Below are positions 14,162 through 30,322 of a stretch of DNA of 35,400 nt, in pieces. Source of the DNA: Ignavibacteria bacterium RIFOXYB12_FULL_35_14 (GTDB lineage Bacteria > Bacteroidota > Ignavibacteria > Ignavibacteriales > Ignavibacteriaceae); the NCBI GenBank assembly GCA_001803045.1, contig MHAR01000022.1, positions 1-35,400 on the forward strand. The letters run 5' to 3'. A program made the translations under genes and the position numbers. Each line of letters starts with the position of its first letter. Within the stretch, counting starts at the first letter, position 1. The notes under the pieces were generated by a model. It saw only the letters and a program-made list of their open reading frames with translations. It searched no databases and had not been told where the DNA came from.

Positions 14162-16006
14162 TCATGGTAAAAGTTTTTTTATGACGGTATCATCCATCCA
14201 ATCCGAGAAAGGAGTAAGCAGAGGCATGCCAGCTATCCGGCCGCCAAAACCCATGAACCGGTGTATGAACATCGGGATGCTTGTGGTTTTTACCTTATCG
14301 AGAATATCGTAGTAAATCTTAACATTGTTAATTTCAGCAAGTTTTGGTGTTGTTCTTTTAAGATAATCTAACGTTTTTGCAAGGCGAAGGCTGTTTCTCA
14401 AATCTAATTTTACGGAATCGAAATTTATCGTTACGGAATCTTGAGTGTTTGATTTTTCAATAACCTGGATAAGCGAGTAAGAATTATTTCTTTGAACGGG
14501 ACCGTAAATTTCATTTAAATCAAGTGACGCGGCTATTTTCCCAATATCTCCTAATAGCTGAATTGGTTTCAGACCGGTTTCACCTTTTGCATTCACGAGT
14601 GAATCTGTCTTACCATAATTCAGAATAATCTCGCTGAAAGGACTGCCATCTTGCAGCAAGCTTAATACTTTAGCGAGCTCATCAAGCTCATTAAGTGTGA
14701 GAACTCGTGCGTTTATTAGAGTTAAATTTTGTCCTCCTTTAAAATCCTTGATGTAACTCTCGTAAATTTCTTCATCGGTAACGCTGATCGTATCTAAAAT
14801 TGATTTGAAGAAAAGCCCGGCTAAATATTTCTGTCTCCAAAGGGATATATCTTTATTTGCTTCGGGTGAGTGCTGAAGATTTTGCTTATAACCTTCTTGC
14901 GTGATAATCTGATACTCAATGAATTGCTTTGCACGATTACCTAACTTATTCAATACAATTATCGAATCTAATTCAGATACGCTGAATCCGTTAAATGCAA
15001 GGTCTGCAAGAAAGTCTTTGGACTTAACCGGATACGATCCCAATTTGAAAAAAGTATTGTTGAGTTCATCTGCTGTTGAGGAATTAATTATAAATTGGAA
15101 ATCCCATTCGGTTAGCGAAAAATAATTTTCAAAATCGGGATTTACAGATTTATTTTTCAGCGTATTCCAAATTTTATTATACAATACAATAAAAGAAGCT
15201 ATATCTATTGAAATACTTACGCCTTTCAGAAGGTCAAGCATGTAATCGCGATATCGTTCTTCTGTTCTGCGGTCGCGTATGGCATCCTTTGCTTTATTAA
15301 TAGCAGCTTCATCTTTAAGGTCAATTGGTGTAAATATTTTATTCTTCAGTTTGAAGATCACCCAGCCTATTTCAGTTTTAAGTGGGTGAGTGAATTGGTT
15401 AAGTTCAAGATCGTAAACGAAATTTTCTATCCTTTCATCTTTTAAGCTTGCAAGCGTCACCTCAGCACTTGATGTGTCTAATTCAGGAAATACAGTAAGG
15501 AGGGAATCGAATTTATTGCCGTCTTTGGCACGACTATAAAAAAGATGAATCCGTGCAGAATCATTCGATGAAACAATAAGTGTGTGAAGTTTAAACTGCG
15601 ATTTGTTAATAGCACCCTTCACGTCATTTGCGGATAACTTCACTTTGTCTTTGATCTCACGCTTAAATAATGCATCACGTACAATTAAATCTTCAAGCGG
15701 CTTAAAGAAAAATTTGAATTTCTCATCATTAGAGATCCCCATTTTATCAGCTTCTTTAGCCCACAGCATTTCAGCAACGAAAGAGTATAGAAAATCCTTT
15801 TTAAATTCTCTTTCCGAATGACGATCAACTTCAGGATTAGAAGGTATATAGGGCGACAGCTCTATCCTAAGTTTAAAATCTTTGGCGGAAATAAAATCAC
15901 TTCCGACTTTTACAACTGCCTGTTGTTTTTCCTGTGAATAACTAAATGAGCAGACGAAAAGAAAAAATAAAAAAGAAAGATATCGGTTCGTCATCAAATC
16001 ACTCAT
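14162..16006 (-). CDS. SurA-like periplasmic peptidyl-prolyl isomerase/chaperone
   Basis: The 614-residue protein has a signal peptide (about 5-25, FSYSQ), a helical SurA-N-like region (about 30-125, KVGSDFISAKDF), a degenerate parvulin-type unit (about 138-222, ending ELNQFTHPLKTEIGWVIFKL) and a second one (about 425-518, ending LNEIYGPVQRNNSYSLIQV). Role by family: folding of exported and outer-membrane proteins. It is the last gene of the glycosidase block. Its ATG at 16006 overlaps the GH3 stop by 8 bp (ATGAGTGA), so translation may be coupled; an in-frame ATG at 15994 would also keep the signal peptide. The catalytic competence of the isomerase units is unsure. Confidence 0.72.
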   Translation of the reverse strand: MSDLMTNRYLSFLFFLFVCSFSYSQEKQQAVVKVGSDFISAKDFKLRIELSPYIPSNPEVDRHSEREFKKDFLYSFVAEMLWAKEADKMGISNDEKFKFFFKPLEDLIVRDALFKREIKDKVKLSANDVKGAINKSQFKLHTLIVSSNDSARIHLFYSRAKDGNKFDSLLTVFPELDTSSAEVTLASLKDERIENFVYDLELNQFTHPLKTEIGWVIFKLKNKIFTPIDLKDEAAINKAKDAIRDRRTEERYRDYMLDLLKGVSISIDIASFIVLYNKIWNTLKNKSVNPDFENYFSLTEWDFQFIINSSTADELNNTFFKLGSYPVKSKDFLADLAFNGFSVSELDSIIVLNKLGNRAKQFIEYQIITQEGYKQNLQHSPEANKDISLWRQKYLAGLFFKSILDTISVTDEEIYESYIKDFKGGQNLTLINARVLTLNELDELAKVLSLLQDGSPFSEIILNYGKTDSLVNAKGETGLKPIQLLGDIGKIAASLDLNEIYGPVQRNNSYSLIQVIEKSNTQDSVTINFDSVKLDLRNSLRLAKTLDYLKRTTPKLAEINNVKIYYDILDKVKTTSIPMFIHRFMGFGGRIAGMPLLTPFSDWMDDTVIKKLLP

Positions 16007-18539
16007 TTAGGGTAAACATACCTTTTAATTTTATGTCTTCAGATGAACCGCCGATTAGGATTTCAAAATCACCAGGTTCGGCAATCCATACTTTATTTTG
16101 GGCATCAAAAAACGATAATGCCATTTGATCAATTTCAAATTTTACAGTTTTAGTTTCGCTGGGTTCGAGATAAACTTTAGCAAATCTCTTCAATTCCTTT
16201 GAAGGCCGGTCAACAGAAGATTTCACATCGCTAATGTATAGCTGTGCAACTTCAGCTCCTGCAGCCTTACCGGAATTCTTGAGCTGAAAACTTACCTCCA
16301 ACTTACCATCATGATTCATTTTTTCCGATGACAATTTTAATCCGCTATACTCAAACTGTGTATAAGAATGGCCATGGCCGAAAGGGAAAAGTGGTATAAA
16401 ATTGTGCTTATCAAAATGACGATAACCTACGTAAATACCATCTTCATACCTTGTTGTACCATCTTCTTTCATGTACGTGTTGTGGGCTGAACAATCTTCC
16501 CACCTTTGCGGGAAAGTCATCGGCAGCTTTCCGGATGGATTTGTCTCACCGATAAGCACTTCTGCAATAGCGTTACCAGCTTGTTCACCCGGAAACCATG
16601 CTTCAATAATTCCGGGGACATCATCTACCCATTCGTTCATTAATACAGGTGAACCGGTTGTGAGTACGACAATTGTGTTTGCATTTACTTTAACAATTTC
16701 TCTTATCAGCTTGTCTTGATCGTTTGGAAGGACGAGATTTTTTCTATCGAATCCCTCACTCTCGTTGTTTGCATTAGTTCCGGCAAATACAATTGCAACG
16801 TCTGAGTTTTTAGCAGCATCGACAGCTTGTGCAAGCAGTTTTTCATTCGGCATTCTCCAGCCTAATTTTACTATAGCACCTCCGGCATTCTCATAGTATT
16901 CAAGCTTAATCTTGTAATACTTCCCGGATTCAAGCCTTGTGGTATATGAATTAGTCATTACTGCATGATCGTTCCAATCATTGATAACCATTTCATCTTC
17001 GAGATACAACCGGACTCCATCATCGCTTGCAACATCAATTGTGTATTTGTCTGTTTTGTCTGGTTTCAAAAAACCAGTCCAGCGAATGGAAAAATTATCT
17101 TTAGGAAAGTCTTCGAAGGGAGCATTCCAGTCTAATGAGAAATCAATTTGTTGATCAACTGCGATTTGATCCGGTGTGCCTTCCAAATTCTTATTAGCGA
17201 AATACTCTCCCTTCAATCCATTTTGTTTACCTTCTTTATCTGTAAACAAAAACTTACTTTCAATTGGATTTGAATCGCCGTCAATCATCGATCCTTGAGC
17301 AAAGTTTATTTTGACTTTACTTCCAATTTTATTTTGAAGAGCTTCTAACGGGCTGATGGGATTAATCGGAACTACCATCGAACTCCCGCCGCCGCCGGTT
17401 CGTGCAACAGCGCTGTTTGGACCAATTACTGCAACCGATTTAATTTTGTTAACATCAATTGGCAGAATCGAATCTTGATTCTTGAGAAGTACAATTCCCT
17501 CCCTTGCAACATCTAAAGCCACCTTTATATGTTCCGGATTATTTACTTTTGATTTGTCGTACTTGTCCCGACTATAGTCGGGATCAAACAATCCGATAGT
17601 AAACATTACTCTTAAAATTCGCCGGACTTTATCATCAAGCTTTGCGATATCTAATTCGCCGCTTTTAAGTTTATCCAACAAGGTTGTTTGATTAAGGTAC
17701 TCTCCCTTAGGCATTTCTACATCAAGTCCGCTGTTAAATGTTGGGATAGAACTGTGAACGGCTCCCCAATCGGACATAACTAAACCATTGAACTTCCATT
17801 CATTTTTCAGTTTATCTATCAGCAGATAATCATTCTCGCTGCAGTATGTTCCATTCAATTTATTGTAAGCCGACATAACTGCCAGTACTTTTGCTTCTTC
17901 AACTGCAGCTTTGAATGCCGGTAAATAAATTTCATTTAACGCTCGCTCATCAACAATAGTATTCACAAAATCACGCTGGTGTTCTTGATTGTTAACAGCA
18001 TAATGTTTTACTGTTGCAACCACATTTTCCTTCTGTACACCTTTGATGTAATCCACCGCGATTCGGGAAGTTAGATATGGATCTTCTCCAAAACTTTCAA
18101 AATTTCTACCTCCCATCGGAATACGTGCGATGTTAACACAAGGTCCAAGGATTACATGCCGGCCCTTTTCTTTTACTTCTTCAGCTATCGCTGAACCTAA
18201 TTTCGAAATCAACTCCGGATTCCATGTTGCTCCCATAGCAATACCGGCAGGGAAAGCGGTTGAACTTTCCCATCTCACTCCAAGCGGTCCATCTGTCATG
18301 TTTAATGGTGGAATTCCAAGACGTTCAATTGCCTTTGTCTCGAATCCCGTTCCGCCAAGTAAATCAATTTTTTCTTCGAGCGTCATTTGCTTAAGCAAAA
18401 CTTCGACTTTTTCTTCAATGGAAAATGAAGAATTTCTATATCCCGTTTGATCTTCTTTTTCAGAGTTCATTACAATAAATGAGTAACTGGTAAATAAAAT
18501 AATTAATACCGATATGAAAAATATAACTTTGATCTTCAT
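15999..18539 (-). CDS. GH3 beta-glucosidase with PA14 insert
   Basis: The 846-residue exported protein has an N-terminal hydrophobic signal (about 1-23). Its GH3 N-domain (about 45-310) has MTDGPLGVRW, GRNFESFGEDP, KHYAVNNQE and VMSDWGA, with Asp257 as the expected nucleophile. The GH3 C-domain is interrupted by a PA14 domain (about 431-575, GLKGEYFANK...ASDDGVRLY) and resumes with the general-acid loop (NNESEGFDR). An FnIII-like domain closes it (about 735-840). PA14-bearing GH3 enzymes usually act on beta-glucosides; the exact linkage cannot be read. AGGAGGAG lies just upstream of the ATG. An 18-bp perfect palindrome lies inside the gene (17566-17583). Confidence 0.93.
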   Translation of the reverse strand: MKIKVIFFISVLIILFTSYSFIVMNSEKEDQTGYRNSSFSIEEKVEVLLKQMTLEEKIDLLGGTGFETKAIERLGIPPLNMTDGPLGVRWESSTAFPAGIAMGATWNPELISKLGSAIAEEVKEKGRHVILGPCVNIARIPMGGRNFESFGEDPYLTSRIAVDYIKGVQKENVVATVKHYAVNNQEHQRDFVNTIVDERALNEIYLPAFKAAVEEAKVLAVMSAYNKLNGTYCSENDYLLIDKLKNEWKFNGLVMSDWGAVHSSIPTFNSGLDVEMPKGEYLNQTTLLDKLKSGELDIAKLDDKVRRILRVMFTIGLFDPDYSRDKYDKSKVNNPEHIKVALDVAREGIVLLKNQDSILPIDVNKIKSVAVIGPNSAVARTGGGGSSMVVPINPISPLEALQNKIGSKVKINFAQGSMIDGDSNPIESKFLFTDKEGKQNGLKGEYFANKNLEGTPDQIAVDQQIDFSLDWNAPFEDFPKDNFSIRWTGFLKPDKTDKYTIDVASDDGVRLYLEDEMVINDWNDHAVMTNSYTTRLESGKYYKIKLEYYENAGGAIVKLGWRMPNEKLLAQAVDAAKNSDVAIVFAGTNANNESEGFDRKNLVLPNDQDKLIREIVKVNANTIVVLTTGSPVLMNEWVDDVPGIIEAWFPGEQAGNAIAEVLIGETNPSGKLPMTFPQRWEDCSAHNTYMKEDGTTRYEDGIYVGYRHFDKHNFIPLFPFGHGHSYTQFEYSGLKLSSEKMNHDGKLEVSFQLKNSGKAAGAEVAQLYISDVKSSVDRPSKELKRFAKVYLEPSETKTVKFEIDQMALSFFDAQNKVWIAEPGDFEILIGGSSEDIKLKGMFTLNE
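17566..17583. repeat. 18-bp perfect palindrome within GH3 coding sequence
   Basis: TCCCGACTATAGTCGGGA encodes part of DPDYSRDKYD. It shares the TCCCGA/TCGGGA ends with the stems in the 96-bp tandem repeats at the left edge. It is possibly a dispersed palindromic repeat tolerated in a loop between the two GH3 domains. Confidence 0.7.
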
Positions 18540-18563
18540 AACTCCTCCTGATGACTTTGAATT

Positions 18564-18812
18564 TTATTTGCCGTAATAATCATTTAAAGTTTTAATGTAA
18601 GCGCCGGCGCCAAATCCTACCATAGGAATTGCACCGTCGTAAGTTTCTTTGGTGTAATCAATCAGCTCAGGGATAAGATTGAAATTATACTTAGCATGAT
18701 CAGTAACCCAATCAATTAATTTTTTAGCTTTTTCCTTTTGTCCAAATTTAATGTGCGCTGAAGCAGTTCGTAAATCAATCATAACCCATTCTGAAATATC
18801 ATAAAGAATCAA
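18564..18812 (-). pseudogene. detached C-terminal part of the GH15-like glycosidase (frameshifted)
   Basis: This frame reads YDISEWVMIDLRTASAHIK...NLIPELIDY...GAIPMVGFGAGAYI and continues the (alpha/alpha)6 barrel that breaks off in the upstream frame. The only start is a TTG with no usable ribosome site, and no signal peptide is present, so it is unlikely to be an independent gene. The PELID stretch sits where GH15 enzymes carry the catalytic base near the C-terminus (inference from family layout). Removing one T from the TTT within 18799-18812 fuses it to the upstream ORF as ...VDSYDISEWV..., giving about 738 residues. Confidence 0.75.
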
Positions 18813-20781
18813 CTCCGTTAACGCGAGAATAACCGCGGTGAGGTTGTATTTTCATCTTTCTGTCATATTCTTCAAGAGTTGAATTAAAGAATTTTTCATC
18901 GTTAATCACATTTAAACTAAATGCTTCGATCATTCCCATATCATAAAACTCATACTCATCGTTTGATTTACCCTCAGCGTTTCCTTTCAGATATCTTCCA
19001 TCAACAACAAAGTTTTTCATGAGTCCATTTTTTATTCGTTCTGCGGCATGAAAATATTTCTCGGAGTTTAAATTCATTTTCTTCAATAATTCAGCATAAG
19101 CTTTTAGCCCACCCGATGCAGTTGCTGAAGTGTAAATGTATTGCTTACCTGGCAAATGTCGTTCCCAGGGGCCGGAATCAATCCTCAAAACATCATTTTT
19201 GTCTATGCAGTGAATAAGTACATCAGCGACTCTTTCATTTATGAACTGATAATATTCTTTAAAGAAAACTAAATCACCGCTTCTATTGATGTAATCCGAA
19301 AAAGTGTAAAGGAAGAAACCGAAGCCGTCGAGTTCAATGTTTGGTCCGAAATCGTTGAAGTCAGATTCTTCTTTCCCAATTCCGAAGTATCTGGTTACAG
19401 AGATCTGATAATCTTTCCCAACACCATAATCTTTTCCATCTTTCCAAACAAATGTTTTATAATAATTGGCGTCGGCATTTAAATAAAATGAAATAAGTTT
19501 TTTCGATTCGTCAAAAAGTCCAGCGCTGTTTAATCCAAGCAAAGTATACATTCCATCACGCAGCCAGCAAATACTCCAGACGCCCGGAGGAAGCGAAGCG
19601 AGAACTTGTCCTCTTCCTTTTGGAAATATTTCGTTCTCAGCAGCTTGAGCCATTTTCAAAACTGCTATTGATTGCTGGTAGAGGTTCTTTTCTTCTGAAC
19701 TCATTCCTTTGGGATATTGAGCCCTCCTAAAAACGTTATACATGAAATTTAATTCATCCTCAATCAAATTGTTTTCAGTTTGTTTTATTCTATCGGCAGC
19801 TTGTTTGATGTACTCTGAGTTACTATGCAGCGAATCGTTAAATGAAAAGAGGAAATATTTTTGAGACACATTATTTGTCTTGATGATTACTGAATCTATC
19901 AACACTTCGGTCTCTAAAGTCTGATAGGTAAAAGAAAGATTAGAGATTACCTCTTCCTTTCCGCTCAACACTGCGTAAAAAATCTTTTCATTTACCGAGA
20001 ACGGTGCAAAGTATTTCAGATTGAAATTTTTATAATCGATTGAAATAATATGTGTGTTATCAAGGTATTTAACTGAAATTGGCTTTTCCTTGCTTTTTAG
20101 TTTTAATGCTTTCAAAAAAGGTTTGACCAGTTGGTTCTCATCGTAAAACTTAAAAATGTGAGGGAAAATATTTTCAATCTCATTTTTTCTTTCGCTGTAA
20201 ACTGCTGCAATCAATCCGTTAGCAGTTGGCATTTGGTAAAAAGATTTTTTAGCACCCATTGGTGGATTCATCTCGTATTGATATTCCTTTTCATTTAATA
20301 TTCTGATTAAACCGCTGTGAATTCCTCCGGGTGAAAAAATATCGTAAGCACGAATCGCGATTACATTTTCTTTCTTCAGCAAGCCAGTAGGAATTTTGTA
20401 TGCGCGCTGTTCATTCCAAGCTGTAACCGGATTTGGAGGGAAAGTCCCGGAAGATCCAATCTTAACCCCATTTAAAAATGTTTCATCAAGATCGTCTATC
20501 TTGCCAAGAAAAAGGTAAAGCTGCTCAGTGCATAAATCTTCATCCACTGAAAAGTGAAGGCGATACCATGCATAACCATCGTAATTTGGAAAACCTTGAT
20601 CTTCCCAATTTCCTGGTACTCTAATTTTTGTCCAACCTGCCTCATCAATTTTTTCGTTCTTGTAGGAGATATCATCCCCGGTTTTAAATATCCAATTATC
20701 TGGAAGAACAATTGTCTGCGAAAAAATTGCCCGGTTGAGAAGTAAGAGCAAAGTTAATAAAAAATATTTTTGTTTGATCAT
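18799..20781 (-). CDS. GH15-like glycosidase with N-terminal jelly-roll, truncated by frameshift
   Basis: The 660-residue reading frame has a signal peptide (1-22, AIFSQ), a GH2/galactose-binding-like jelly-roll (about 25-155, WTKIRVPGNW...AWYRLHF) and then a (alpha/alpha)6 toroid from about 330. The toroid shows WLRDGMY (396-402), LDGFGFFLYTF (about 474) and GPWERHLPG (Glu530), a GH15/glucoamylase-like pattern. The frame ends abruptly after RGYSRVNGVDSL, and the missing end is in the next frame (18564-18812). It starts 4 bp after the stop of the GH63/GH37-like gene, so both sit in one operon. The substrate is uncertain: GH15 is mostly alpha-glucan or trehalose, but context suggests beta-glucan work. 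The shift is either an assembly error, a real mutation, or (least likely) recoding. Confidence 0.78.
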   Translation of the reverse strand: MIKQKYFLLTLLLLLNRAIFSQTIVLPDNWIFKTGDDISYKNEKIDEAGWTKIRVPGNWEDQGFPNYDGYAWYRLHFSVDEDLCTEQLYLFLGKIDDLDETFLNGVKIGSSGTFPPNPVTAWNEQRAYKIPTGLLKKENVIAIRAYDIFSPGGIHSGLIRILNEKEYQYEMNPPMGAKKSFYQMPTANGLIAAVYSERKNEIENIFPHIFKFYDENQLVKPFLKALKLKSKEKPISVKYLDNTHIISIDYKNFNLKYFAPFSVNEKIFYAVLSGKEEVISNLSFTYQTLETEVLIDSVIIKTNNVSQKYFLFSFNDSLHSNSEYIKQAADRIKQTENNLIEDELNFMYNVFRRAQYPKGMSSEEKNLYQQSIAVLKMAQAAENEIFPKGRGQVLASLPPGVWSICWLRDGMYTLLGLNSAGLFDESKKLISFYLNADANYYKTFVWKDGKDYGVGKDYQISVTRYFGIGKEESDFNDFGPNIELDGFGFFLYTFSDYINRSGDLVFFKEYYQFINERVADVLIHCIDKNDVLRIDSGPWERHLPGKQYIYTSATASGGLKAYAELLKKMNLNSEKYFHAAERIKNGLMKNFVVDGRYLKGNAEGKSNDEYEFYDMGMIEAFSLNVINDEKFFNSTLEEYDRKMKIQPHRGYSRVNGVDSL

Positions 20782-20785: not shown

Positions 20786-22342
20786 TTAATCCATTAAGAT
20801 TTTTTGTGTGCCTTTTTTGATTTGGAAAGTTTTATAGTTGTTGTGTCCACGCTCAATAGTTAAATCAAAGGTACTATCAGAATGAACTTCAATTTCAGCA
20901 GGAGAGTTTACACTCTCTCTTTGATGGCAAATCAATGACGAGGTCACATTTCCAAATCTTAAATTTTCAATTCCGTGTTTATCAATTCTTGAGAGGTGCC
21001 AGGTTAATGTGTTATTAACACCATTCGGGCGAAGCCCAATTATATTTTCGATTAATAATTCAATTGGGCCGCAGCCAGTCCAGCCGACAAAATCGGGATG
21101 AGACCAAACACCGCGAGCATAAGCTTCAGCAGAATAATTTTCCCAGATAGTTCCTGTCCTCTTAAATACTTCATAAATTCCATTTAAGTATTCTTCGGTT
21201 GCAAGTGCAGCAAACTCGTTGAAATTGTATGCATTATCATTTTCAACACCATATTTATCCAATCCTTTTATTATCATAACATTTGTTGGAGCCCAAACAC
21301 TTCCAAGCCAATATTTTCCATCAGCGGCATAATTTTTTTGATCAGCAGCGAGTGAGGGGAAAGGGATTTTTCTCCAGAATGAATTTGGATCTTTCAAATT
21401 TATCAAAAGCTTATCTGCTTGATGCAGATTCGCAATCCCTGCAAGCATCGGCCAGAAACAAGCTACAGTTTTCCATTTAACTTGATTGCCTTCATCATCA
21501 ACATCATAATAAAGCCCGTCTTCCTCATTCCACATGAATTTATTTACCCGGTCAGCAATTTCTTTGGCTTTAGTTTTAAGCGAAATTTCTCTATCAGCCA
21601 TATATAATTCTCTACACATTATCGACATATCATTGTACATCATTACCATTTGAGCAGACATATCAACCCAACCGGAACCGGTTCTTGGTGTGTTATCCAT
21701 GCCGGAGCCTAAGCCGGTCTGCCAATAAAGGTAATGTCTTGTGTTTTCTTTCTTCCGATATTTTTCTAACCATTCAGCATACTTTTCAAGTACGGGAAGA
21801 ACCGCTGCAAATCTCGATTTATCTCCAGTGATTTTATAGTTTTCAATTTCTGCCCAGCTAAACAACGGAGGATTTACAGTGTGCTCCCTTCCTTCATATA
21901 CAAAATCTTCACCGGTGGCTTCAACAATTTCTCTGCAGATGTAACCATTCTCATATTGCCGGTAATAAAAATTATCGAGCGATTGTATAGAGGGAAAGAT
22001 ATGATGAGCATACCGTGCAAACATTATCATGAAGAAAGTATCCCACTGAAAAATATTGGGAGCAAAAGCTTCATCAAGATAATTTGAAACGAATGGTGAA
22101 CCTTCCGGCGGTTGTTTGAAGTGATCAAATGCTAACTCCCATGCTTTCCAGTAAAGTTTTACCCATTCAGGTTTATCTTCAAGAATCGGGGAAGGGAGTT
22201 TGTCTTTACTTGTCTCAAAAGCCGGAATTTCTTTATGAGTATAATTTTTTTTAGAGAAGTAAATTCCTCTCGTACCTGTATCTTCGTATTGAGAATAAGT
22301 AATACACGAGAAAAGATAAATTAGTAATATGATTTTTTTCAT
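20786..22342 (-). CDS. exported GH63/GH37-like (MGH1-type) (alpha/alpha)6 glycosidase
   Basis: The 518-residue protein has a signal peptide (1-18, CITYSQ). Toroid motifs include FQWDTFFM (98-105), NPPLFSWA (157-164), SGMDNTPR (213-220, Asp216 the likely general acid as in GH63), YWLGSVWAPTN (344-354) and TIWENYSAE (Glu401, the likely base). GH63, GH37 and related groups cleave alpha-glucosides such as oligosaccharide ends, trehalose or glucosylglycerate; the exact specificity is not readable. The gene lies between the GH5 gene (102-bp gap holding a palindromic repeat) and the GH15-like gene (4-bp gap). Confidence 0.85.
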   Translation of the reverse strand: MKKIILLIYLFSCITYSQYEDTGTRGIYFSKKNYTHKEIPAFETSKDKLPSPILEDKPEWVKLYWKAWELAFDHFKQPPEGSPFVSNYLDEAFAPNIFQWDTFFMIMFARYAHHIFPSIQSLDNFYYRQYENGYICREIVEATGEDFVYEGREHTVNPPLFSWAEIENYKITGDKSRFAAVLPVLEKYAEWLEKYRKKENTRHYLYWQTGLGSGMDNTPRTGSGWVDMSAQMVMMYNDMSIMCRELYMADREISLKTKAKEIADRVNKFMWNEEDGLYYDVDDEGNQVKWKTVACFWPMLAGIANLHQADKLLINLKDPNSFWRKIPFPSLAADQKNYAADGKYWLGSVWAPTNVMIIKGLDKYGVENDNAYNFNEFAALATEEYLNGIYEVFKRTGTIWENYSAEAYARGVWSHPDFVGWTGCGPIELLIENIIGLRPNGVNNTLTWHLSRIDKHGIENLRFGNVTSSLICHQRESVNSPAEIEVHSDSTFDLTIERGHNNYKTFQIKKGTQKILMD

Positions 22343-22443: not shown

Positions 22444-23817
22444 TTATCGTAAACCCAGCGCTTTAATGTATCCATCATTCACTGTACAATTTTTAAGCTT
22501 ACAATTTTCTAAATATTGATTCAGTGCTTGTTTTACCTTCTCAATATCAGGTCTGCTTTCTCGAATTGCACCGTAAGAATATGTATCACCTTCCGCAAAT
22601 TCTATTATTAAGTCAAAATATTTTGGTTGGATAATTGACACTACACCACGATCGCTTTTCATTTTTTTAAATGGCCAAAAGCACCAGCCGATGTTATTCT
22701 TCTCAAGCAAAGTTCTAAAATCATTTATCCATTTATCTGTGTTCTCTCCGGATTCCCCAAGCCACATCGGTACATTGTACTTGCTGCCGAAATCAATATA
22801 ATCTTGAATTACTTTTTGTTCAACCTCTGTCCAATAAGTATGAAAAGTATAAGCAAGCTTATCATCAAATGGCGGACCAAAGATTTTGAAATTTGTGTTC
22901 CACTGAGCGCCGCCTATAAAAATAATATGGTTCTTATCTACCTCACGGATTGCAGATGTGATTCGTTTGTAAAGGGGTTCAAGTCTTGGATTTAGTTTTT
23001 CCTTGTCATAAAAATGTGCAATTGGCTCATTCATTAAATCGTAGCCGATGATGATAGCTTCATCTCTAAAAATTCCTGCTAGCTTTTTCCAAATATCTAT
23101 CATTATCTGCTGGCTTTCCGGACTTTCAAACAGAAATGGATAACCGTAACTGTCATCTATGTTGTCGCCTGTTTGTCCTCCGGGAGCACAATGCATATCA
23201 AGTATCACGTAAAGATTCTCCTCCTTGCACCAATTCACAACACGCTTTAAAAGATCATAGCCAACGCCCTTTAATTCCCGGTATGGGTGATCTGTTACAA
23301 ATAATCTGAAATTGAACGGGATACGGATTGAATTGAAACCCAGACTTTTAATAAAATGAATGTCATCTTTTGTAATATAATTTTCGCGGTAAGCATCCCA
23401 AAATTTATTTGCTTCTTCCTCGCCGATAAGTACATCGAACAAATCATAAATTAATCTTGGTGAATTTGTTTTTTCGAAGTGGAACATATAACCTTCCGGA
23501 ACAAGCCAGTTGCCGAGATTTATTCCTTTCAGGAGAATCGTCTGCCCACCCGGCAAAACAAATTCTTTCCCTTGAACCGAAACGAATTCATTGTTTTGTG
23601 CAAGAGTGAAAGATGTAAAAAGAAAGATAAAGATCAACAGCTTAAAATTGTTGGAAATGTTCTTTCTGTTGTTTTGATCTTGTACGTTCTTGTCTTTTAA
23701 AATGAACATAGCCCGGGATGCACAATGAGGGCATTTAATCTCAACTGGTTTAACCTCTAAATTATAATCGAACAATAATCCTTTTATATACGTGATCATT
23801 CTTTCTATTGCTTTCAT
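22444..23817 (-). CDS. GH5 glucanase with unusual N-terminal extension before the signal sequence
   Basis: The 457-residue protein has the GH5 fold: INLGNWLVPEGY (about 99-110, close to the exo-beta-1,3-glucanase signature), FNSIRIPFNF, VILDMHCAPGG, then DLMNEP with acid/base Glu264 and WLGESGE with nucleophile Glu355. A typical signal sequence (KLLIFIFLFTSFTLAQ) ends near residue 74, preceded by about 55 residues with a single CPHC pair (29-32). The ATG at 23817 lies 3 bp after the esterase stop, which favours it as the operon start, yet the extension would disturb normal export; Met37 (23709) is the alternative start. Role: cleavage of beta-glucan outside the cytoplasm, consistent with the GH16 and GH3 neighbours. 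Confidence 0.88.
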   Translation of the reverse strand: MKAIERMITYIKGLLFDYNLEVKPVEIKCPHCASRAMFILKDKNVQDQNNRKNISNNFKLLIFIFLFTSFTLAQNNEFVSVQGKEFVLPGGQTILLKGINLGNWLVPEGYMFHFEKTNSPRLIYDLFDVLIGEEEANKFWDAYRENYITKDDIHFIKSLGFNSIRIPFNFRLFVTDHPYRELKGVGYDLLKRVVNWCKEENLYVILDMHCAPGGQTGDNIDDSYGYPFLFESPESQQIMIDIWKKLAGIFRDEAIIIGYDLMNEPIAHFYDKEKLNPRLEPLYKRITSAIREVDKNHIIFIGGAQWNTNFKIFGPPFDDKLAYTFHTYWTEVEQKVIQDYIDFGSKYNVPMWLGESGENTDKWINDFRTLLEKNNIGWCFWPFKKMKSDRGVVSIIQPKYFDLIIEFAEGDTYSYGAIRESRPDIEKVKQALNQYLENCKLKNCTVNDGYIKALGLR

Positions 23818-23820: not shown

Positions 23821-24540
23821 TTACTCATTATTTAATTTATGTTGGAGAAACCAATTGTATAATTCGTCGTTGTTATACGTCTCGGTCCACGAATCATGAT
23901 TTGCTTCAGGATATATTGTAAACTTAACATCTGCATTGCATGATTTTAACTTTTCTACCATCTGCTCGGATGCACTTAATGGAACAACCATATCCTTTGC
24001 TCCATGAAATACCCAGGTAGGAATATTCTTAATTGTACATGCCATAGTAGGATTACTCCAGCCGCAAATTGGAGCAATCGCTGCAAAACGGTTGGGTTGA
24101 GCAATTGCTAACGACCATGTGCCATGCCCGCCCATACTTAATCCGGTAACATACATTCTGTTTTTATCAACCTTGTAGTTTGCTTCAATTTCATCAAGCA
24201 AAGCTGCGAGCAAATCCGTATTCCAAAACATGTTATCGGGGCATTGAGGTGAAACCACGATAAAAGGGAAATCCTTGCGTTCATTGATTAGTCTTGGTAA
24301 GCCATGGACTTTTACTTTTTCAATGTCCGTTCCTCTTTCACCTGCGCCATGCAGAAAAAGAACAAGAGGGAACTCATCATTGCTTTGGTCATACTCCTTC
24401 GGAAGATAGAGCAGGTAATTTGCTGATAAAGTTAACTTGATTTCTTTCTCAAAATTATGAGCAGTCTGCTTTTCTGATTGGGAATAAACTGATGATGAAA
24501 TCATAATAATTGTTATAAAAAGTGAGAATGATGTTTTCAT
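23821..24540 (-). CDS. exported alpha/beta-hydrolase (esterase / prolyl-oligopeptidase-like)
   Basis: From the ATG at 24540 the protein has 239 residues and opens with a signal peptide (MKTSFSLFITIIM...VYSQ). GGAGA lies 4 nt before this ATG; an upstream in-frame ATG at 24603 would run through the palindromic hairpin and lacks a signal. The fold is complete: FLHGAGERG oxyanion loop, GLSMGG nucleophile elbow, HGAKDMVVP acid loop and EANHDSW catalytic His. Related enzymes in polysaccharide loci remove ester groups (acetyl or feruloyl type) from glycans; the substrate is not visible here. Confidence 0.85.
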   Translation of the reverse strand: MKTSFSLFITIIMISSSVYSQSEKQTAHNFEKEIKLTLSANYLLYLPKEYDQSNDEFPLVLFLHGAGERGTDIEKVKVHGLPRLINERKDFPFIVVSPQCPDNMFWNTDLLAALLDEIEANYKVDKNRMYVTGLSMGGHGTWSLAIAQPNRFAAIAPICGWSNPTMACTIKNIPTWVFHGAKDMVVPLSASEQMVEKLKSCNADVKFTIYPEANHDSWTETYNNDELYNWFLQHKLNNE

Positions 24541-24559
24541 ATTTTCTCCATTAATTAAA

Positions 24560-24591
24560 AAAGATGACATCTTTTGAAAGATGTCATCTTT
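24560..24591 (-). terminator. double 15-bp palindrome forming a strong intercistronic hairpin
   Basis: AAAGATGACATCTTT (24560-24574) and AAAGATGTCATCTTT (24577-24591) are each near-perfect palindromes with a single-base centre, and together make a 15-bp stem with a 2-nt loop. Read on the coding (minus) strand it is followed by a run of T and then by the esterase ribosome site. It may act as an attenuator or mRNA-processing and stability element between the GH16 and esterase genes. Confidence 0.65.
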
Positions 24592-24602
24592 AGTGAGCAG
24601 CA

Positions 24603-25436
24603 CTAATTTTTCTTATAAACTCTTACGTAATCAATTTCCATACTTGCAGGGAACGCACTTGGATCAATACCTTGAGCACCGCCCCAGGTTCCTCCAACAG
24701 CAAGATTTAATATAAGGTGGAATCTTTTATCGAAGGGCCAGTAAGCCCAGCCTTTGTTCTCATTATTAAAAGTTAAATATTTTATTGAGTCGATATAAAA
24801 ATCAATATGATCTTCAAACCATTCGATTGCATATTTATGAAATTCGGTAGTTGCGGTCGAAATCGGAAGCTTTGCAGTTTTTTGAGTTCCGATGGTGTGA
24901 TTATAAGCTTTTGTATGAATTGATCCGTGAACAACATTCGGATCGTAACCAACATGTTCCATAATATCTATTTCACCGCTTTCAGGCCAGCCACCGTATT
25001 CCCAATCTGTAGAAAGCATCCAGATAGCTGGCCATGTACCTTTTCCGGTAGGCAGCTTTGCGGATACTTCAATTCTTCCGTATAACCAATCGCCTTTATA
25101 TTTGCTTCTTATTCTTGCCGAAGTAAAATATCTTTCTTGGTAAGTTTCATTAATAGCTTTGATAACTAAATGTCCATTCTCGATGAATGAATTTTTAGGA
25201 AATGCTGTGTAGAATTGAAGCTCGTTGTTGCCACCGCCATCGCTGTTCACCTCATGTTCCCATTTGGTAAGGTCTATGTTTGATTTATCGAACTCTTCGT
25301 TCCATACTAATGTATAGCCGGGGATTTCCGGGATATCGCTTTTAGGAGATGTTGTTGAATCCTCCTTACTGCAGCTTGTGAGAGTAAAAGAAATAACTAA
25401 AACCAACAAAACAGCCAAATCATATTTTCGCTTCAT
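24603..25436 (-). CDS. GH16 laminarinase-like endo-beta-glucanase, lipoprotein
   Basis: The 277-residue protein has a lipoprotein signal with lipobox LTSC (Cys22). It is a single GH16 domain (about 40-277): LVWNEEFD, NNELQFYT, WPAIWML and the catalytic motif GEIDIMEHVG, with Glu155 as nucleophile, Asp157 and Glu160 as acid/base. The extra Met between Asp157 and Glu160 (ExDxxE) is the beta-bulge form typical of laminarinases rather than lichenases. Role: endo-cleavage of beta-1,3 or mixed-linked glucan at the cell surface or in the periplasm. AAGGAG precedes the ATG. It lies 24 bp after the GH3 stop, in the same operon. Confidence 0.94.
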   Translation of the reverse strand: MKRKYDLAVLLVLVISFTLTSCSKEDSTTSPKSDIPEIPGYTLVWNEEFDKSNIDLTKWEHEVNSDGGGNNELQFYTAFPKNSFIENGHLVIKAINETYQERYFTSARIRSKYKGDWLYGRIEVSAKLPTGKGTWPAIWMLSTDWEYGGWPESGEIDIMEHVGYDPNVVHGSIHTKAYNHTIGTQKTAKLPISTATTEFHKYAIEWFEDHIDFYIDSIKYLTFNNENKGWAYWPFDKRFHLILNLAVGGTWGGAQGIDPSAFPASMEIDYVRVYKKN

Positions 25437-25460
25437 AATATTCTCCTTACTTACAAAATT

Positions 25461-27698
25461 TTACTCAACCAGTTCGAACTCCTTCTCTAGTGCATCGGCA
25501 GAATTAGCTCCAACAAATGCTTTGAATTTGCCCGGCTCGGATTTGAATTTCATGTCGGCAGTTGTAAATCTTAAATCTTTTTCATGGATTGTGAACTGAA
25601 CAGACTTCTCCTCACCTCTTTTAAGCATTACTTTCTTAAAGCCCTTCAATTCTTTAACTGGCCGTGTAACGCTTCCTACCAAATCCTGAATATAGAGCTG
25701 AACTACTTCTTCACCATCGTAATTTCCGGTATTCTTAACTTTCACAGATACAATAATTGAATCTTCCTCTGTTAGGTTACCTGAGCTCAAGTTGAAATCA
25801 TTCAAACTGAATGTCGTGTAGCTTAAACCGTATCCGAATGGGTAGAGAGGAGTGAGCGGAAGATCGAGATACTTTGATGTGTAGTGATTTTTTAAATCAC
25901 CCGATCTACCGGTGTTTTTATGATTGTAGTAAATCGGAACTTGTCCGACCGTTCTTGGAAAAGTAACAGGTAATTTACCGCCGGGATTATAATCACCAAA
26001 TAAAACTTTAGCGATTGCTTCACCTGCAGTAACACCGGAAAACCACGCTTCAAGAATCGCATTGGCATTATCGTTCAACCACGGAATGGAGAGTGGCCTT
26101 CCATTCATTAGCACAACTACGATTGGTTTACCTGTTTTCTTCAATTCCTTTGCAAGCGCTTCCTGAACACCTGGCAAGTCAAGTGAAGATCTGCTGCAAG
26201 CTTCACCGCTCATGTCTCTGCTTTCACCAAGACATAATACCACTACATCGGATTTTTTAGCAATATTCACTGCATTCTTAAATCCTGCTGTTGAATTATC
26301 ATCGATCTTACATCCTTCGGCATAGGCAATATCAATTTTTTTATCGACATAATTTTTCAAACCTTCCAGCACCGTTGTAACATCAACGGAATCGCCCATA
26401 GCGCTCCAGCCGCCAAGTGGATGAGTTTTGGAATTTGCTAATGGTCCGATTACGCCAATTCTTTTATAAGTCTTTTTTAAAGGAAGTATATTCTTTTCAT
26501 TTTTAAGCAGTACCATAGAGCGTTTTGCAACCTCAAGAGCTGCAATCCTAACTTCATCGGTCATAATATTTTTTTGTTCACGCTCTTTTTGGCAATAACG
26601 ATAAGGATCATCGAATAGGCCAAGCATAAACTTGACACGCAAAATCCGTTTTACGGATTCATCAATCAAATCCTCATCTACTTTGCCTTCATCCTCAAGT
26701 TCTTTAAGATGGGTAATGTAGGAACGTGATTCCATATCCATATCTAGTCCGGCATTCAGGGAGATTTGTCCGGCATGTTTTAAATCGGAAGCAAAGCCAT
26801 GGTTAATCAATTCACCGATTGAATTCCAATCGCTTACCACAAAACCTTTAAATCCCCATTCATCGCGAAGAATATCTGTTAACAAGCGCTTGCTTCCCGA
26901 CGAAGGAATTCCGCCAATTTCGTTGAAAGAAGCCATTATGGTATGTGCCCCGGCATCAACAGCGGCTTTGAACGGCGGTAAGTAAACATCACGAAATGTT
27001 CTCTCAGAAAAATCAACCGTATTATAATCTCTTCCTCCTTCAGCTCCGCCATAGCCAGCATAGTGCTTTGCGCAAGCAATAATATTTAAGTTAGATAGAT
27101 TTTCTTGATAACCTCTCACCCTTGCCGCTGCCATTAATGAACCTAAGTATGGATCTTCACCTGAACCTTCCATAATTCTTCCCCAGCGAGGATCGCGTGC
27201 AATATCAACCATTGGTGAAAATGTCCAATGTATTCCGGCTGAGGCGGCTTCAAGCGCTTGATAATGTGCGGACATTTCTATTATCTCCGGTTGCCATGTT
27301 GCTGCCTCACCAAGTGGAACCGGGAAGATTGTTTTGAAACCATGAATTACATCCAATCCAAATATTAAAGGAATTTTAAGACGTGATTCATTTACTGCTA
27401 TCTTTTGAAGTTCGTACGTAAATTCCGCTCCAATAGCATTTAGGAAAGATCCTATTTTACCTTCCTTAATTAATTCTTTGTACTCATTTGGAACCGAGAC
27501 TTTAACTGTAGGACCCCAGCCAATTCCATAAGACAGTTGATTAAGCTGTCCAATTTTTTCATCCAGCGACATCAGCGATAAAACGGAATCGACTCTTGCT
27601 GAGAGAAGTTCTTCAGGAGTTAGTTGGGGTTTATCGCTGCCAAACCCGAACCAAAATAGAGTGAGGAAAATTAATAAATAAGGAGTAAGTTTTTTCAT
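25461..27698 (-). CDS. GH3 beta-glucosidase, BglX-like
   Basis: From the ATG at 27698 the protein has 745 residues with a signal-like start (MKKLTPYLLIFLTLFWFGFGS); GAGG lies 5 nt upstream. The frame is open 32 codons further, but that stretch has no signal character. Domains: GH3 N (GLDVIHGFKT, DPRWGRIMEGSGEDP, KHYAGYG, VVSDW with nucleophile Asp290), GH3 C (LGESRDMSGEACSRSSLDL), and FnIII-like C-terminus (about 645-745). It follows the BglX domain order without PA14 and hydrolyses beta-glucosides from the end. It is the first hydrolase of the block; a 149-bp gap after the ROK gene may carry its own promoter. Confidence 0.93.
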   Translation of the reverse strand: MKKLTPYLLIFLTLFWFGFGSDKPQLTPEELLSARVDSVLSLMSLDEKIGQLNQLSYGIGWGPTVKVSVPNEYKELIKEGKIGSFLNAIGAEFTYELQKIAVNESRLKIPLIFGLDVIHGFKTIFPVPLGEAATWQPEIIEMSAHYQALEAASAGIHWTFSPMVDIARDPRWGRIMEGSGEDPYLGSLMAAARVRGYQENLSNLNIIACAKHYAGYGGAEGGRDYNTVDFSERTFRDVYLPPFKAAVDAGAHTIMASFNEIGGIPSSGSKRLLTDILRDEWGFKGFVVSDWNSIGELINHGFASDLKHAGQISLNAGLDMDMESRSYITHLKELEDEGKVDEDLIDESVKRILRVKFMLGLFDDPYRYCQKEREQKNIMTDEVRIAALEVAKRSMVLLKNEKNILPLKKTYKRIGVIGPLANSKTHPLGGWSAMGDSVDVTTVLEGLKNYVDKKIDIAYAEGCKIDDNSTAGFKNAVNIAKKSDVVVLCLGESRDMSGEACSRSSLDLPGVQEALAKELKKTGKPIVVVLMNGRPLSIPWLNDNANAILEAWFSGVTAGEAIAKVLFGDYNPGGKLPVTFPRTVGQVPIYYNHKNTGRSGDLKNHYTSKYLDLPLTPLYPFGYGLSYTTFSLNDFNLSSGNLTEEDSIIVSVKVKNTGNYDGEEVVQLYIQDLVGSVTRPVKELKGFKKVMLKRGEEKSVQFTIHEKDLRFTTADMKFKSEPGKFKAFVGANSADALEKEFELVE

Positions 27699-27703
27699 TT
27701 TAA

Positions 27704-27707
27704 CCTC
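27704..27707 (-). promoter_or_regulatory. Shine-Dalgarno GAGG fixing the GH3 start
   Basis: GAGG lies 5 nt before the ATG at 27698, directly before the signal peptide. No such site precedes the more distal ATGs in the same frame. Confidence 0.5.
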
Positions 27708-27847
27708 GTTAATCATAATATAACATTGGGTGATTAAAATTTTTTTCCGATAAGATATCAAACAATTATAACTATAAAATATGTGTGCTAACACCTATAG
27801 TAATGTGACAAGGATAAAAATTATGTTCCGGCTTTAAGATTACATTA

Positions 27848-28813
27848 CTATTTAGCTTTAATAATCTCATTCCAGATTAAAGCGCTTGCACCCAGCACTG
27901 CACTGTTTCCCTCAGGCAAACCCGATTGGAGTATTTTTACTTTATTCCTGAATACATGGAATAGATTTTCCTCCATGGATATTTTGGTTGGTTTAATAAT
28001 CAAATCACCTGCCAATGCCAATCCTCCAAACAGAATTATTACTTCGGGGCTGGTAACAGCAATAGCATCAGCCAGCTTTTGGCCTAAAACCCTTCCGGTA
28101 AAGTTGAAAGCTTCCAGGGCTATTTTATCGCCAGCTTTTGCTGCTTCGAAGATCATTTTGGAATCCAGATCATTAAAGCTTATACTTCTAAGCGAACTAT
28201 ATTGATTGGAATTTGCAAGCAGTTCCATCACAGTTCGTCGTATTCCTGTAGCCGAAGCGTAAGTTTCCAAACATCCTTTTTTCCCGCATCCGCATAATCT
28301 TCCATTAGGATCAAAAACAGTATGTCCTATTTCTCCCGCAAATCCATCTGATCCGTAAACGAGTTTCCCGTCCACCACAACTCCGCTTCCTAATCCAGTT
28401 CCGAGAGTTATTACGATAAAATGTTTTATTCCTTTAGCTGCACCGAATAACATCTCGCCAATTGCTGAAGCATTTGCATCATTTGTTATGGCAGCCGGAA
28501 CATCATAGTATTGTCTGATAATCTCAATAATATTTACAGTTCCCCAGCGCAGGTTGGGTGGATTTTCAACTGTGCCATGATAATAATTAGCATTCGGTGC
28601 GCCGATCCCTACTCCCTTTAAAATAGCGTTATCGGAAATTGTTTTATAGAGGTTATCAATTTCAGGATTTAATCTTGCAAAAAGATCGGCGGCACTACTA
28701 TTAGCTTTAGTAGGAATTGAGGAATCGGTAATACATTTGCCATTTATGTCCACGAACCCAAATGCGGTGTTTGTTCCGCCGACATCTATTCCGAGTGTTA
28801 CTTCCGTTTTCAT
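27848..28813 (-). CDS. ROK-family sugar kinase (probable glucokinase)
   Basis: The 321-residue cytoplasmic protein has the ROK layout: phosphate loop DVGGTNT (10-16), NDANASAIGE (111-120, catalytic Asp112), GTGLGSG (138-144), EIGHTVFDP (161-169) and the zinc motif CGCGKKGC (174-181). This form without an N-terminal helix-turn-helix is a kinase rather than a repressor. In a beta-glucan block with a glucose-type importer, conversion of glucose to glucose-6-phosphate is the natural role (inference). It starts 6 bp after the MFS stop, so the two are co-transcribed; no good Shine-Dalgarno is seen. Confidence 0.92.
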   Translation of the reverse strand: MKTEVTLGIDVGGTNTAFGFVDINGKCITDSSIPTKANSSAADLFARLNPEIDNLYKTISDNAILKGVGIGAPNANYYHGTVENPPNLRWGTVNIIEIIRQYYDVPAAITNDANASAIGEMLFGAAKGIKHFIVITLGTGLGSGVVVDGKLVYGSDGFAGEIGHTVFDPNGRLCGCGKKGCLETYASATGIRRTVMELLANSNQYSSLRSISFNDLDSKMIFEAAKAGDKIALEAFNFTGRVLGQKLADAIAVTSPEVIILFGGLALAGDLIIKPTKISMEENLFHVFRNKVKILQSGLPEGNSAVLGASALIWNEIIKAK

Positions 28814-28819
28814 AGGAGT

Positions 28820-30322
28820 TTATGCTTTAGCTGTTTTTGCGAAAGATGGAATATGTCCTTTGATACCATAGTAAGCTATGTAGATATAACATAAAACCGG
28901 CAAAAAGAATGCGTGATGAATTCCAATGTTATCTGCAAAGGCTCCCTGAATTACTGGAATTATTGCCCCGCCAACAATTGCTGTGCAAAGAATTCCTGAA
29001 CCTTGCCCTGTATGTTTCCCTAATCCATCGATTGCAAGCGTAAATATTGTGGGGAACATTATCGAATTAAATAAACCGACAGCTAAAATGCTCCACATTG
29101 CAAAAGGGCCGTTTGTAAGCATTGAAGTAACTACAAGTATAGCTGCACAAAATGCCAGGATTGCTAATGTTCTTCCCGGTTTTTGTTTGCCGAGATTAAA
29201 TGCAATGAAGTTTAATCCAACCAAAATAAGGAACGTTAGAGTCTTACCAAAATTTGAAAGCGAAAATGCTGCGAGATTTTGATATTCCTTAGTAACATAC
29301 AAAGCAAGACCTAATGCAAGCACAAAAACGAGTGCGGCGTAGATATTTTTTTTCTTTGTATCTTTCATTTCTGAAAGAGTAATCGATCCAAAAAATCTTC
29401 CAATCATTGCGCCGCCCCAATAAAGTGCAACATAAGTTCCTGCTTCGGCTTCCGGCATATTAAGCAGCTCTTTGAAATAATTAACGAGAAAGCTTCCAAT
29501 TGAAACTTCGCCGCCCACATAGACAAAAATTGCAACCGCTCCTAAAACCAAGTGTTTGTAGCCCCATGCACTTTTATGATGATGATCATAACTGGTTCCT
29601 TGGCCAGTGCTTGATGATTGATCGGACGCCTCAATCTTTGGAAGCTTGAAAAGAGCGATGATAACGGCAATTAGTACAAGCATTCCGGTAAGCAGCAAAT
29701 AAGGAGTTTGAACAGAGCTAGCTTCAGTCAGTTTATAAGTTTCGACATCTGTCATTGTCATTTTAGCTAATTCATCGGCACCTTTAACAGCCATTGAAAG
29801 GATTAGGATAGAACCAAAGATTGGTGCGATAGTGGTTCCAAGTGAATTAAAAGCTTGTGAGAGATTTAACCTGCTCGGAGCGGTCTCAGGTTTGCCTAGA
29901 ATTGCTACATATGGATTTGCTGCTACTTGGAGTAAAGTAATTCCGGACGCAAGAACAAATAAAGCAAATAAAAATATTCCGTATGAACGATAGCCCGCTG
30001 CCGGATAGAATAAAGCAGTTCCACCTGCGGCTGTAAGTAAACCAATTATGATCCCTGTTTTATATCCTATCTTCTCTACAAGCATACCTGATGGAAGAGA
30101 TACTATAGCATAAGCAGTAAAGAAAGTGAACTGAACAAGCATAACTTGAGTGTAGTTTAAATCGAAGACGGCTTTTAAATGCGGAATAAGAATATCATTT
30201 AAGCAGGTGATAAAACCCCACATAAAAAACAATGAAGTTAGAACGATAAGTGCAGGTCCATAATTGGTACCGTTACTGTTTGTATTGGTGCCCAAATTTG
30301 TAGAGGTAGATGAAACGGCCAT
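28820..30322 (-). CDS. MFS sugar importer, FucP/GluP (FHS) type
   Basis: The 500-residue protein has about 12 hydrophobic segments. FHS-family signatures are clear: [18 protein letters not shown] near the N-terminus, [38 protein letters not shown], and late [26 protein letters not shown]. Family members are proton symporters for glucose, galactose or fucose. A long central loop (about 225-255) is Ser- and His-rich. As first gene of the minus block, its promoter must lie in the 311-bp divergent region shared with the sensor operon. GGAG lies about 6 nt before the ATG. Confidence 0.93.

Follow-up and report, generated by a model that had tools for sequence, protein, structure and literature searches.

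Introduction

Polysaccharide utilization loci (PULs) of the SusCD type in Bacteroidetes, such as the levan locus with Bt1762-63, combine clustered glycoside hydrolases (GHs), a TonB-dependent barrel paired with a neighbouring surface protein, an inner-membrane carrier of the major facilitator superfamily (MFS) and a periplasmic sugar-sensing regulator, as laid out in the available part of PMC7782687. In carbohydrate-active enzyme clusters of Ignavibacteriales, susCD was "scarcely detected", and none was found in Ca. Kapabacteria; the accessible text of that study (PMC10576277) calls the machineries distinct and names no replacement importer. Here we analyze contig MHAR01000022.1 of Ignavibacteria bacterium RIFOXYB12_FULL_35_14, all 35,400 bp of which constitute the window (contig C22 of the genome). 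A GH-rich operon in this window is, in our assessment, probably the periplasmic and inner-membrane ("left") arm of a bipartite β-glucan locus with predicted TonB-dependent, SusCD-free import. The counterparts of the other ("right") arm lie on other contigs of the genome and include a TonB-dependent receptor (TBDR), a large protein that we call P1050 and a PorV-like barrel, which together form a candidate for the missing importer.

This locus shares with the SusCD PULs all the features listed above. It differs from them in that its TBDR fails the SusC model, the partner P1050 is a non-lipoprotein, predicted to be mostly β and not SusD, an extra PorV-like barrel is present, and the regulator is a triad of sugar-binding protein (SBP), histidine kinase (HK) and NtrC-type response regulator. 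The BtuB-BtuG system of Bacteroides thetaiotaomicron (8blw and 8p97, both among the fold matches of our TBDR) likewise pairs a TBDR with a non-SusD surface partner; BtuG differs in being a lipoprotein, according to its PDB title, and in serving vitamin B12, while P1050 is larger and multi-domain. On the sensing side, CuaDSR of Ruminiclostridium cellulolyticum, as described in the available portion of PMC10384115, also has its SBP gene next to those for a sensor kinase and a regulator; it responds to a glucan disaccharide and regulates a cluster for uptake. Its importer is of the ATP-binding cassette (ABC) type, whereas the present locus has an NtrC/sigma-54-type regulator, an anchored-looking SBP and FHS and TBDR carriers. 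Finally, the gene after P1050 scores over the cutoff of the PorV/PorQ family of the type IX secretion system (T9SS; NF033709), as members of that family do, but unlike PorV and PorQ proper it stays below both equivalog cutoffs, and most P1050 genes are followed by a PorV-like paralogue of their own.

Results

A glycoside hydrolase operon faces a probable three-component sensor

The source genome (G000) comprises 4.10 Mb in 95 contigs and is rated 100% complete. Ten minus-strand open reading frames (ORFs) fill positions 14162-30322 of the window, exactly where an initial annotation, made from the sequence alone, had placed ten co-directional genes; Table 1 gives their matches to Pfam and NCBIfam profiles. 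The gaps between them measure -8 to 101 bp, apart from one of 259 bp before the PA14-containing GH3 gene. The enzymes, FHS importer and ROK kinase of the original inventory were all recovered; the tenth gene, which had been counted but left unnamed, encodes a parvulin-type peptidyl-prolyl isomerase (PPIase). Since the gene set recurs across many related genomes, it is not a chance assembly.

Divergent from this operon, at 30634-34917, and overlooked in the initial annotation, stand genes for an SBP, an HK and an NtrC-type regulator, separated by 2 and 7 bp. They form one unit without permease genes, which is the gene arrangement of a three-component sensor, and their order is the same in relatives. 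The relatives of the SBP in the PDB are trehalose/maltose-binding proteins (E ~1e-43) and other sugar-binding proteins. As no permease gene follows it in the window, this SBP likely acts as a sensor.

A probable TonB-dependent right arm in relatives and on two other contigs

We searched a set of 59 related genomes, G000 included, with the SBP and with the GH63-like protein of the operon, and fetched the surroundings of 34 of the 57 SBP matches with E < 1e-90, mostly the top-scoring ones, as well as those of GH63-like matches. In 18 of these SBP regions, the window among them, the SBP gene is divergent from left-arm genes; in two of the 18 (G040 and G046) an unidentified gene lies between SBP and FHS. 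Downstream of the triad and on its strand, G029, G008, G003, G040, G020 and others encode a symporter, proteins with a T9SS tail or CBM9, a TBDR of about 905 amino acids (aa), the family-less P1050 of about 1,030-1,050 aa and a PorV-like barrel; wherever the fetched sequence extends far enough, a GH16 gene, and often a GH3 gene, comes after the PorV-like gene. Several divergent regions show the triad running directly into the series symporter (SSS), CBM9, TBDR, P1050, PorV, GH16, GH3. A related arrangement is found in Stygiobacter electus (a Melioribacteraceae isolate, locus L216) and other named loci, where the FHS-ROK-GH3 genes come after the TBDR-P1050-PorV module, both in one orientation.

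The source genome has counterparts of these genes on two contigs, C78 (GH2, symporter and CBM9) and C5 (TBDR, P1050, PorV, GH16-malectin and GH3). These counterparts are clearly the best matches: the symporter on C78 is 66% identical, versus 31% for the next full-length match, and the TBDR on C5 is 55-58% identical, versus up to about 42%. C78 is tied to the window by a single gene split between them and by IS-like ends. Window positions 35171-35317 match residues 14-62 (53%) of a secreted protein of the same-genus genome G001, residues 58-351 of which match C78:75-956 (80%); in G001 the gene stands two genes past the regulator, and the intervening 699-aa gene of G001 is missing at the corresponding window position. 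Because exact copies of the window's last stretch end contigs C91 and C85, and because the window end and the C78 start show a 15/16-bp inverted match, the contig-ending repeat is probably a multi-copy insertion element interrupting the secreted gene. C78 in turn breaks off within the CBM9 gene, and the TBDR frame opens 85 bp into C5, which gives the order seen in relatives; among C22, C78 and C5 no end overlap of 10 bp or more was found.

The initial annotation had reported a lack of SusC/SusD, and the models used (PF07980, TIGR04056) bear this out. PF07980, the SusD model, matches nothing in the 4.10-Mb genome, other SusD-like models such as PF14322 not having been searched, and none of the 30 TonB receptors identified with PF00593 exceeds the cutoff of the SusC model TIGR04056 (368.25 bits; top score 117.4). 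With this model the C5 receptor scores 69.7 bits and that of S. electus 56.3, in both cases over the N-terminal part only. Among the 59 relatives, SusD (PF07980) is over cutoff in nine and at E <= 0.001 in ten. The initial annotation had also named a SusCD pair just outside the window as a finding that would refute it; the candidate importer module on C78 and C5 corresponds to this in spirit, although it is not a SusCD pair.

Two symporter fragments at C28:28481-28970 (L207, L209), each with one internal TGA, are 58% (over 85 residues) and 39% identical to the symporter of the G029 glucan locus and possibly represent a decayed copy.

TBDR, P1050 and PorV form a recurrent unit

When named genomes were scanned with an alignment of P1050 proteins, at least 578 candidate stretches came up, 558 of them encoding a relative. 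We kept 80 loci, which by record titles belong to Ignavibacteriota, Calditrichota, Neomarinimicrobiota and others, and counted the 80 P1050 ORFs with coverage over 60% in them. A TBDR gene lies directly upstream of 77, the remaining three being at contig ends, and a PorV gene directly downstream of 71, with another gene in five cases and a contig end in four. All 59 genomes of the relatives set have P1050 matches (6 to 22 per genome at E <= 0.001, where pieces of one gene may count separately). G000 itself has eight at E <= 1e-60, the one on C87 in two pieces, and in a sample of 148 genomes from the phylum 61 reach this threshold, of which 16 belong to the order, our genome among them, 7 to other parts of the class and 38 to neither. 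Over 59 loci, the pairwise identities among TBDRs and those among P1050 proteins correlate with r = 0.957, as expected for co-inherited genes.

Taking as glucan clade the loci whose P1050 shares at least 50% identity with the G029 protein, we found carbohydrate genes near 41 of its 47 loci (FHS in 10/47), while in the other clade an ABC-type SBP and permease accompany 17 of 33. Some paralogues of the source genome adjoin non-sugar genes, which makes it probable that the unit represents a type of importer in general use, one branch of which is specific to glucan.

A second, paralogous SBP-HK-NtrC triad is present on C66 (L058:5590-19300), followed by a symporter, a TBDR, a P1050 relative and a PorV-like gene; the sigma-54-type pattern described below occurs there at the symporter start. 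Parvulin-type PPIases repeatedly adjoin SBP triads and TBDR-P1050-PorV units (window 14162-16006; L181:7662-9173; L195:7284-8957). The label falls on 19 ORFs across the scanned loci, the window's own counted, a recurrence that suggests a chaperone dedicated to components of the outer membrane or to secreted ones.

Predicted folds of the three proteins

The TBDR has a plug and a barrel (PF07715 and PF00593, both over cutoff). It was modelled, at pLDDT 86.1, as a barrel with a plug; the nearest structures are PirA, BtuB and Cir (Z 38-39, up to 38.9), and the SusC chains of the levan and dextran utilisomes stand lower in the Foldseek list. The PorV-like protein belongs to the PorV/PorQ family, with 222.5 and 228.4 bits against an NF033709 cutoff of 90.

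By sequence, P1050 could not be assigned: the C5 protein has no Pfam match, no NCBIfam family is over cutoff, and no PDB entry matches at E <= 0.1. A lipobox-like motif is seen in one of 59 P1050 proteins. The model of the S. electus protein, built with 66 sequences, has a pLDDT of 86.1 and a pTM of 0.78 and consists mostly of strands. SusD is helical, unlike this strand-rich model, and BtuG is a β-propeller. With the whole P1050 model, Foldseek returned PorZ first and mostly FN3-type proteins, all with low TM-scores. In a second structural comparison of the Foldseek-listed structures, with P1050 again compared whole, about 260 residues within 38-643 matched the β-supersandwich of GH15, GH94 and GH116 enzymes (Z up to 20.6), as exemplified by 9ju0 (Z 20.6, root-mean-square deviation [rmsd] 3.0, 262 aligned) and laminaribiose phosphorylase 6gh3 (Z 18.7, rmsd 3.8, 279 aligned). 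Going by these models, a contact of P1050 with sugar is plausible, and FN3-like domains likely lie beyond the supersandwich part, given the Foldseek ranking.

Residues ~300-400 of P1050 (A1, A2) contain conserved Asp-rich DNDxDG/DExRDDGIDNDGDW repeats that resemble calcium-binding loops and are partly of low confidence in the model.

A conserved sigma-54-type site precedes the operon

The genome encodes rpoN, and a sigma-54-type promoter-like site lies upstream of the FHS gene (Table 1). Of the 18 divergent regions, 15 have the pattern GGCAY-N5-TTG on the operon strand, or 17 if GGYAY is allowed, compared with 4/18 on the other strand and 0/18 when the spacing is changed by 1 or 2 or the pattern reversed. 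Within the scanned loci it precedes 11 of 16 FHS genes versus 12 of 486 unlabelled genes (Fisher p = 4.6e-13); counts for other families are 3/11 for GH16, 2/8 for GH3bgl, 4/18 for GH5, 1/8 for GH63l and 4/34 for SBP. The window's own site is recognizable only through comparison of relatives. A plain search of the window for TGGCAN6TGC with one mismatch gave 14 matches, below the chance mean of 19.06, and was discarded.

Substrate and location of the enzymes

The initial annotation's assignment of the block to β-glucan is backed by the structural relatives of the GH16 enzyme, the nearest of which are a β-1,3(4)-glucanase and a laminarinase (7wwc, 1.6e-86; 3iln, 3.1e-84), and β-glucan is the likely substrate of the operon. 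Among all GH16 structure matches, laminarinases and β-1,3-glucanases are the commonest names. Both motifs cited at the time are present in the translations: NLGNWLVPE in GH5 and EIDIME, an instance of ExDxxE, the laminarinase form of the GH16 motif. A strict β-1,3 specificity is less certain, and GH5 is not clearly an exo-β-1,3-glucanase: in the PDB its top matches are 9ku5 (annotated as a putative β-xylosidase) and CelC, and exo-β-1,3-glucanases come behind them (E ~1e-17). The best-named PDB relatives of the BglX-like GH3 are β-glucosidases; xylosidases rank lower.

By eye, the left-arm GHs bear Sec or lipoprotein signals, and no T9SS tail was found in them with Pfam or NCBIfam, while the C5 GH16 and the C78 GH2 carry Por_Secre_tail. 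Given the missing tails in the left arm, glucose is probably released in the periplasm. The motif CSKEDS after the signal peptide of the left-arm GH16 lipoprotein, which we take to resemble the Bacteroidetes lipoprotein export signal, raises the prospect that this enzyme may sit at the surface. In five of six GH16 relatives examined, the corresponding motif is CSKEDT, CSQDET, CKKEDS, CKKDDS or CKKNDA; the one at L169 has none.

Features of the window

Table 1. Annotated features of the window, in order of position
Feature	Position	Strand	Evidence
Parvulin-type PPIase	14162..16006	-	PF00639, PF13145 over cutoff
GH3 with PA14 insert	15999..18539	-	PF01915, PF00933, PF07691 over cutoff
GH15-like glycosidase with GH2_N-like domain	18799..20781	-	Under cutoff: PF00723 21.4 (22), PF02837 22.9 (28)
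(α/α)6 glycosidase, GH63/MGH1-like	20786..22342	-	PF22422 107.6 bits, PF03200 66.8 bits, over cutoff; PDB relatives weak
GH5 glucanase with NLGNWLVPE	22444..23817	-	PF00150 115.6 bits
α/β-hydrolase, esterase/peptidase-like	23821..24603	-	PF00326, PF02230, PF00756 over cutoff
GH16 laminarinase-type lipoprotein	24603..25436	-	PF00722; CSKEDS after signal peptide (by eye); ExDxxE
GH3 β-glucosidase, BglX-like	25461..27794	-	PRK15098.1 812.9 bits, cutoff 666
ROK sugar kinase, glucokinase-like	27848..28813	-	PF00480 210.2 bits (over cutoff); TIGR00744 233.2, under cutoff 260.35
FHS-type MFS sugar importer, GluP-like, operon gene 1	28820..30322	-	TIGR01272 372.7 bits, cutoff 202.55
Sigma-54-type promoter-like site GGCATAAAAATTG	30397..30409	-	87 bp upstream of FHS start; conserved pattern
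SBP, probably membrane-anchored sensor	30634..31950	+	PF01547/PF13416; N-terminal hydrophobic stretch (by eye)
Sensor HK	31953..33431	+	PF02518
NtrC-type response regulator	33439..34917	+	PF00158 234.9 bits, PF00072; GAFTGA kept
Secreted gene, 5' part, cut by contig end	35132..35317	+	Remainder of G001 relative matches C78:75-956
End of multi-copy, insertion sequence (IS)-like element	35307..35381	.	100% copies at ends of contigs C91, C85

A 96-bp unit is present in three tandem copies at the contig start (1-293, 94% match). Neighbours unrelated to the operon encode another TonB receptor (412-2850), a T9SS-tailed M4 peptidase (3488-7072), an M28 peptidase (7298-8911), a YdjC-type deacetylase (9537-10427) and a BNR protein whose T9SS tail match is weak (10563-13904).

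Discussion

Judging from domains and signals, glucan would first be cut at the surface by T9SS-secreted right-arm enzymes (GH16-malectin, GH2 and the CBM9 protein) and by the GH16 lipoprotein. Gene order, shared inheritance and predicted folds suggest that surface-located P1050 would then capture oligosaccharides for import through its TBDR, while export or seating of P1050 would fall to the PorV-like barrel; the trio would thereby replace the SusCD function. In the periplasm, GH5, GH3 and (α/α)6 enzymes would free glucose, to be imported by FHS (a role proposed in the initial annotation and supported by TIGR01272) and phosphorylated by ROK, as their families suggest. The probably anchored SBP may present oligosaccharide to the HK, whose NtrC-type partner would activate the operon from the predicted sigma-54 site at 30409-30397, a step suggested by the conservation of that site. 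Extending this beyond the window, we tentatively propose, as a possibility somewhat short of an even chance, that TBDR-P1050-PorV is an unnamed outer-membrane glycan importer that replaces SusCD in Ignavibacteriota and relatives (Calditrichota, Neomarinimicrobiota), with P1050 as a secreted β-supersandwich surface protein that is seated by its own PorV paralogue and forms the capture lid on a non-SusC TBDR, and with the periplasmic glucan arm sigma-54-activated via a three-component sensor.

Several observations weigh against these proposals. The right arm lies on other contigs, the adjacency of C78 and C5 is suggested by synteny only, and C78 holds other genes before the GH2 gene. In 16 of the 34 SBP regions the triad has no left-arm gene opposite it, and G009, G034 and G048 carry the GH63-like gene and the found SBP genes on different contigs. 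Linked genes co-diverge even without contact; a shared fold is no proof that P1050 binds sugar; and P1050 is not recognized as T9SS cargo, with no TIGR04183 match at E <= 0.01 and a weak match to the PorU C-terminal model (17.3 and 19.8 bits), a P1050 paralogue reaching 20.3 bits with CHU_C, below the cutoff of 27. The sigma-54-type pattern was defined only after sites had been seen, in genomes that are related, and the window site alone is no better than shuffles (0.11). Sigma-54 promoters have the form GG(N10)GC at -24/-12, and the C at -12 is absent from 12 of 17 listed sites, the window's included, and present in five. Upstream of right-arm genes the pattern was found in 0/13 cases for T9a, 0/15 for T9b, 0/33 for TBDR, 0/22 for P1050, 0/27 for PorV, 0/6 for GH16t, 0/13 for GH3x and 1/22 for SSS, that one being a paralogue (paralogues counted throughout). 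A shared regulon would therefore be hypothetical; C78 has a Reg_prop/Y_Y_Y sensor kinase and a LuxR-type regulator of its own (L210:1223-5113) upstream of GH2-symporter-CBM9, and this pair may control the right arm.

The bipartite locus has to be set against other explanations of the same genes. The model of the initial annotation, here spelled out as extracellular cleavage of the glucan to glucose or dimers, passage of these through porins by diffusion and glucose uptake by FHS, with no dedicated outer-membrane importer, can draw on the FHS and ROK genes, on the absence of SusD and SusC by the models used and on the lack of a TBDR in the block itself. Its step from missing SusCD to release of glucose or very short products before uptake is unsupported, since the TBDR module, together with GH16, GH3 and GH2 genes, shares the locus in several relatives and has counterparts in the source genome; periplasmic glucose release, as the untailed left-arm GHs suggest, and the resemblance of the sensor SBP to sugar-oligosaccharide-binding proteins also speak against it. 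We regard this model as quite improbable, and its conclusion that there is no importer as probably wrong. The locus may also be right and the substrate another one, namely mixed-linkage glucan, a cello- or xyloglucan-type polymer or a heteroglycan. The GH5 ranking, the GH16 matches to β-1,3(4)-glucanases and the GH2, GH63-like and GH15-like enzymes, which have no explanation under pure β-1,3-glucan, make this a serious contender, although the predominance of laminarinase and β-1,3-glucanase names among the GH16 matches and the laminarinase-form ExDxxE motif leave it the less probable choice.

A different objection concerns the trio itself, which could be a surface-protein assembly or adhesion unit, or an importer of a metal or cofactor, that merely lies near glycan genes. 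Its TBDR is nearest in fold to siderophore- and BtuB-type receptors, PorV comes from a secretion family, and P1050 modules stand beside non-sugar genes too, the source genome's own paralogues being next to biotin carboxylase, DctM-like, DNA-repair and other genes. Against this stand the glycan genes at 41/47 glucan-clade loci, the ABC-type SBP and permease at 17/33 loci of the other clade and the fold that part of P1050 shares with a domain of sugar-active enzymes; we consider this reading of the trio unlikely.

In the open-licence PMC literature, judged by titles and abstract openings, we found no paper on the TBDR-P1050-PorV unit. The available text of the Melioribacter roseus genome paper (PMC3534657) mentions SusCDE for starch and MFS, SSS and TonB carriers but not this unit, nor does the available part of the Caldithrix abyssi paper (PMC5317091). 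Within the literature searched, the candidate replacement module and its sensor thus appear to be new, whereas the scarcity of susCD in Ignavibacteriales was already described in the accessible text of PMC10576277. A PUL without SusCD need not be one without active outer-membrane import, and PUL finders keyed to SusCD will overlook such loci. Ignavibacteriales are rich in polysaccharide-degrading enzymes, yet susCD is scarce in their carbohydrate-active enzyme clusters according to the same available text; the TBDR-P1050-PorV module offers a concrete candidate for their glycan importer and may explain how glycans are imported in this order without the usual machinery.

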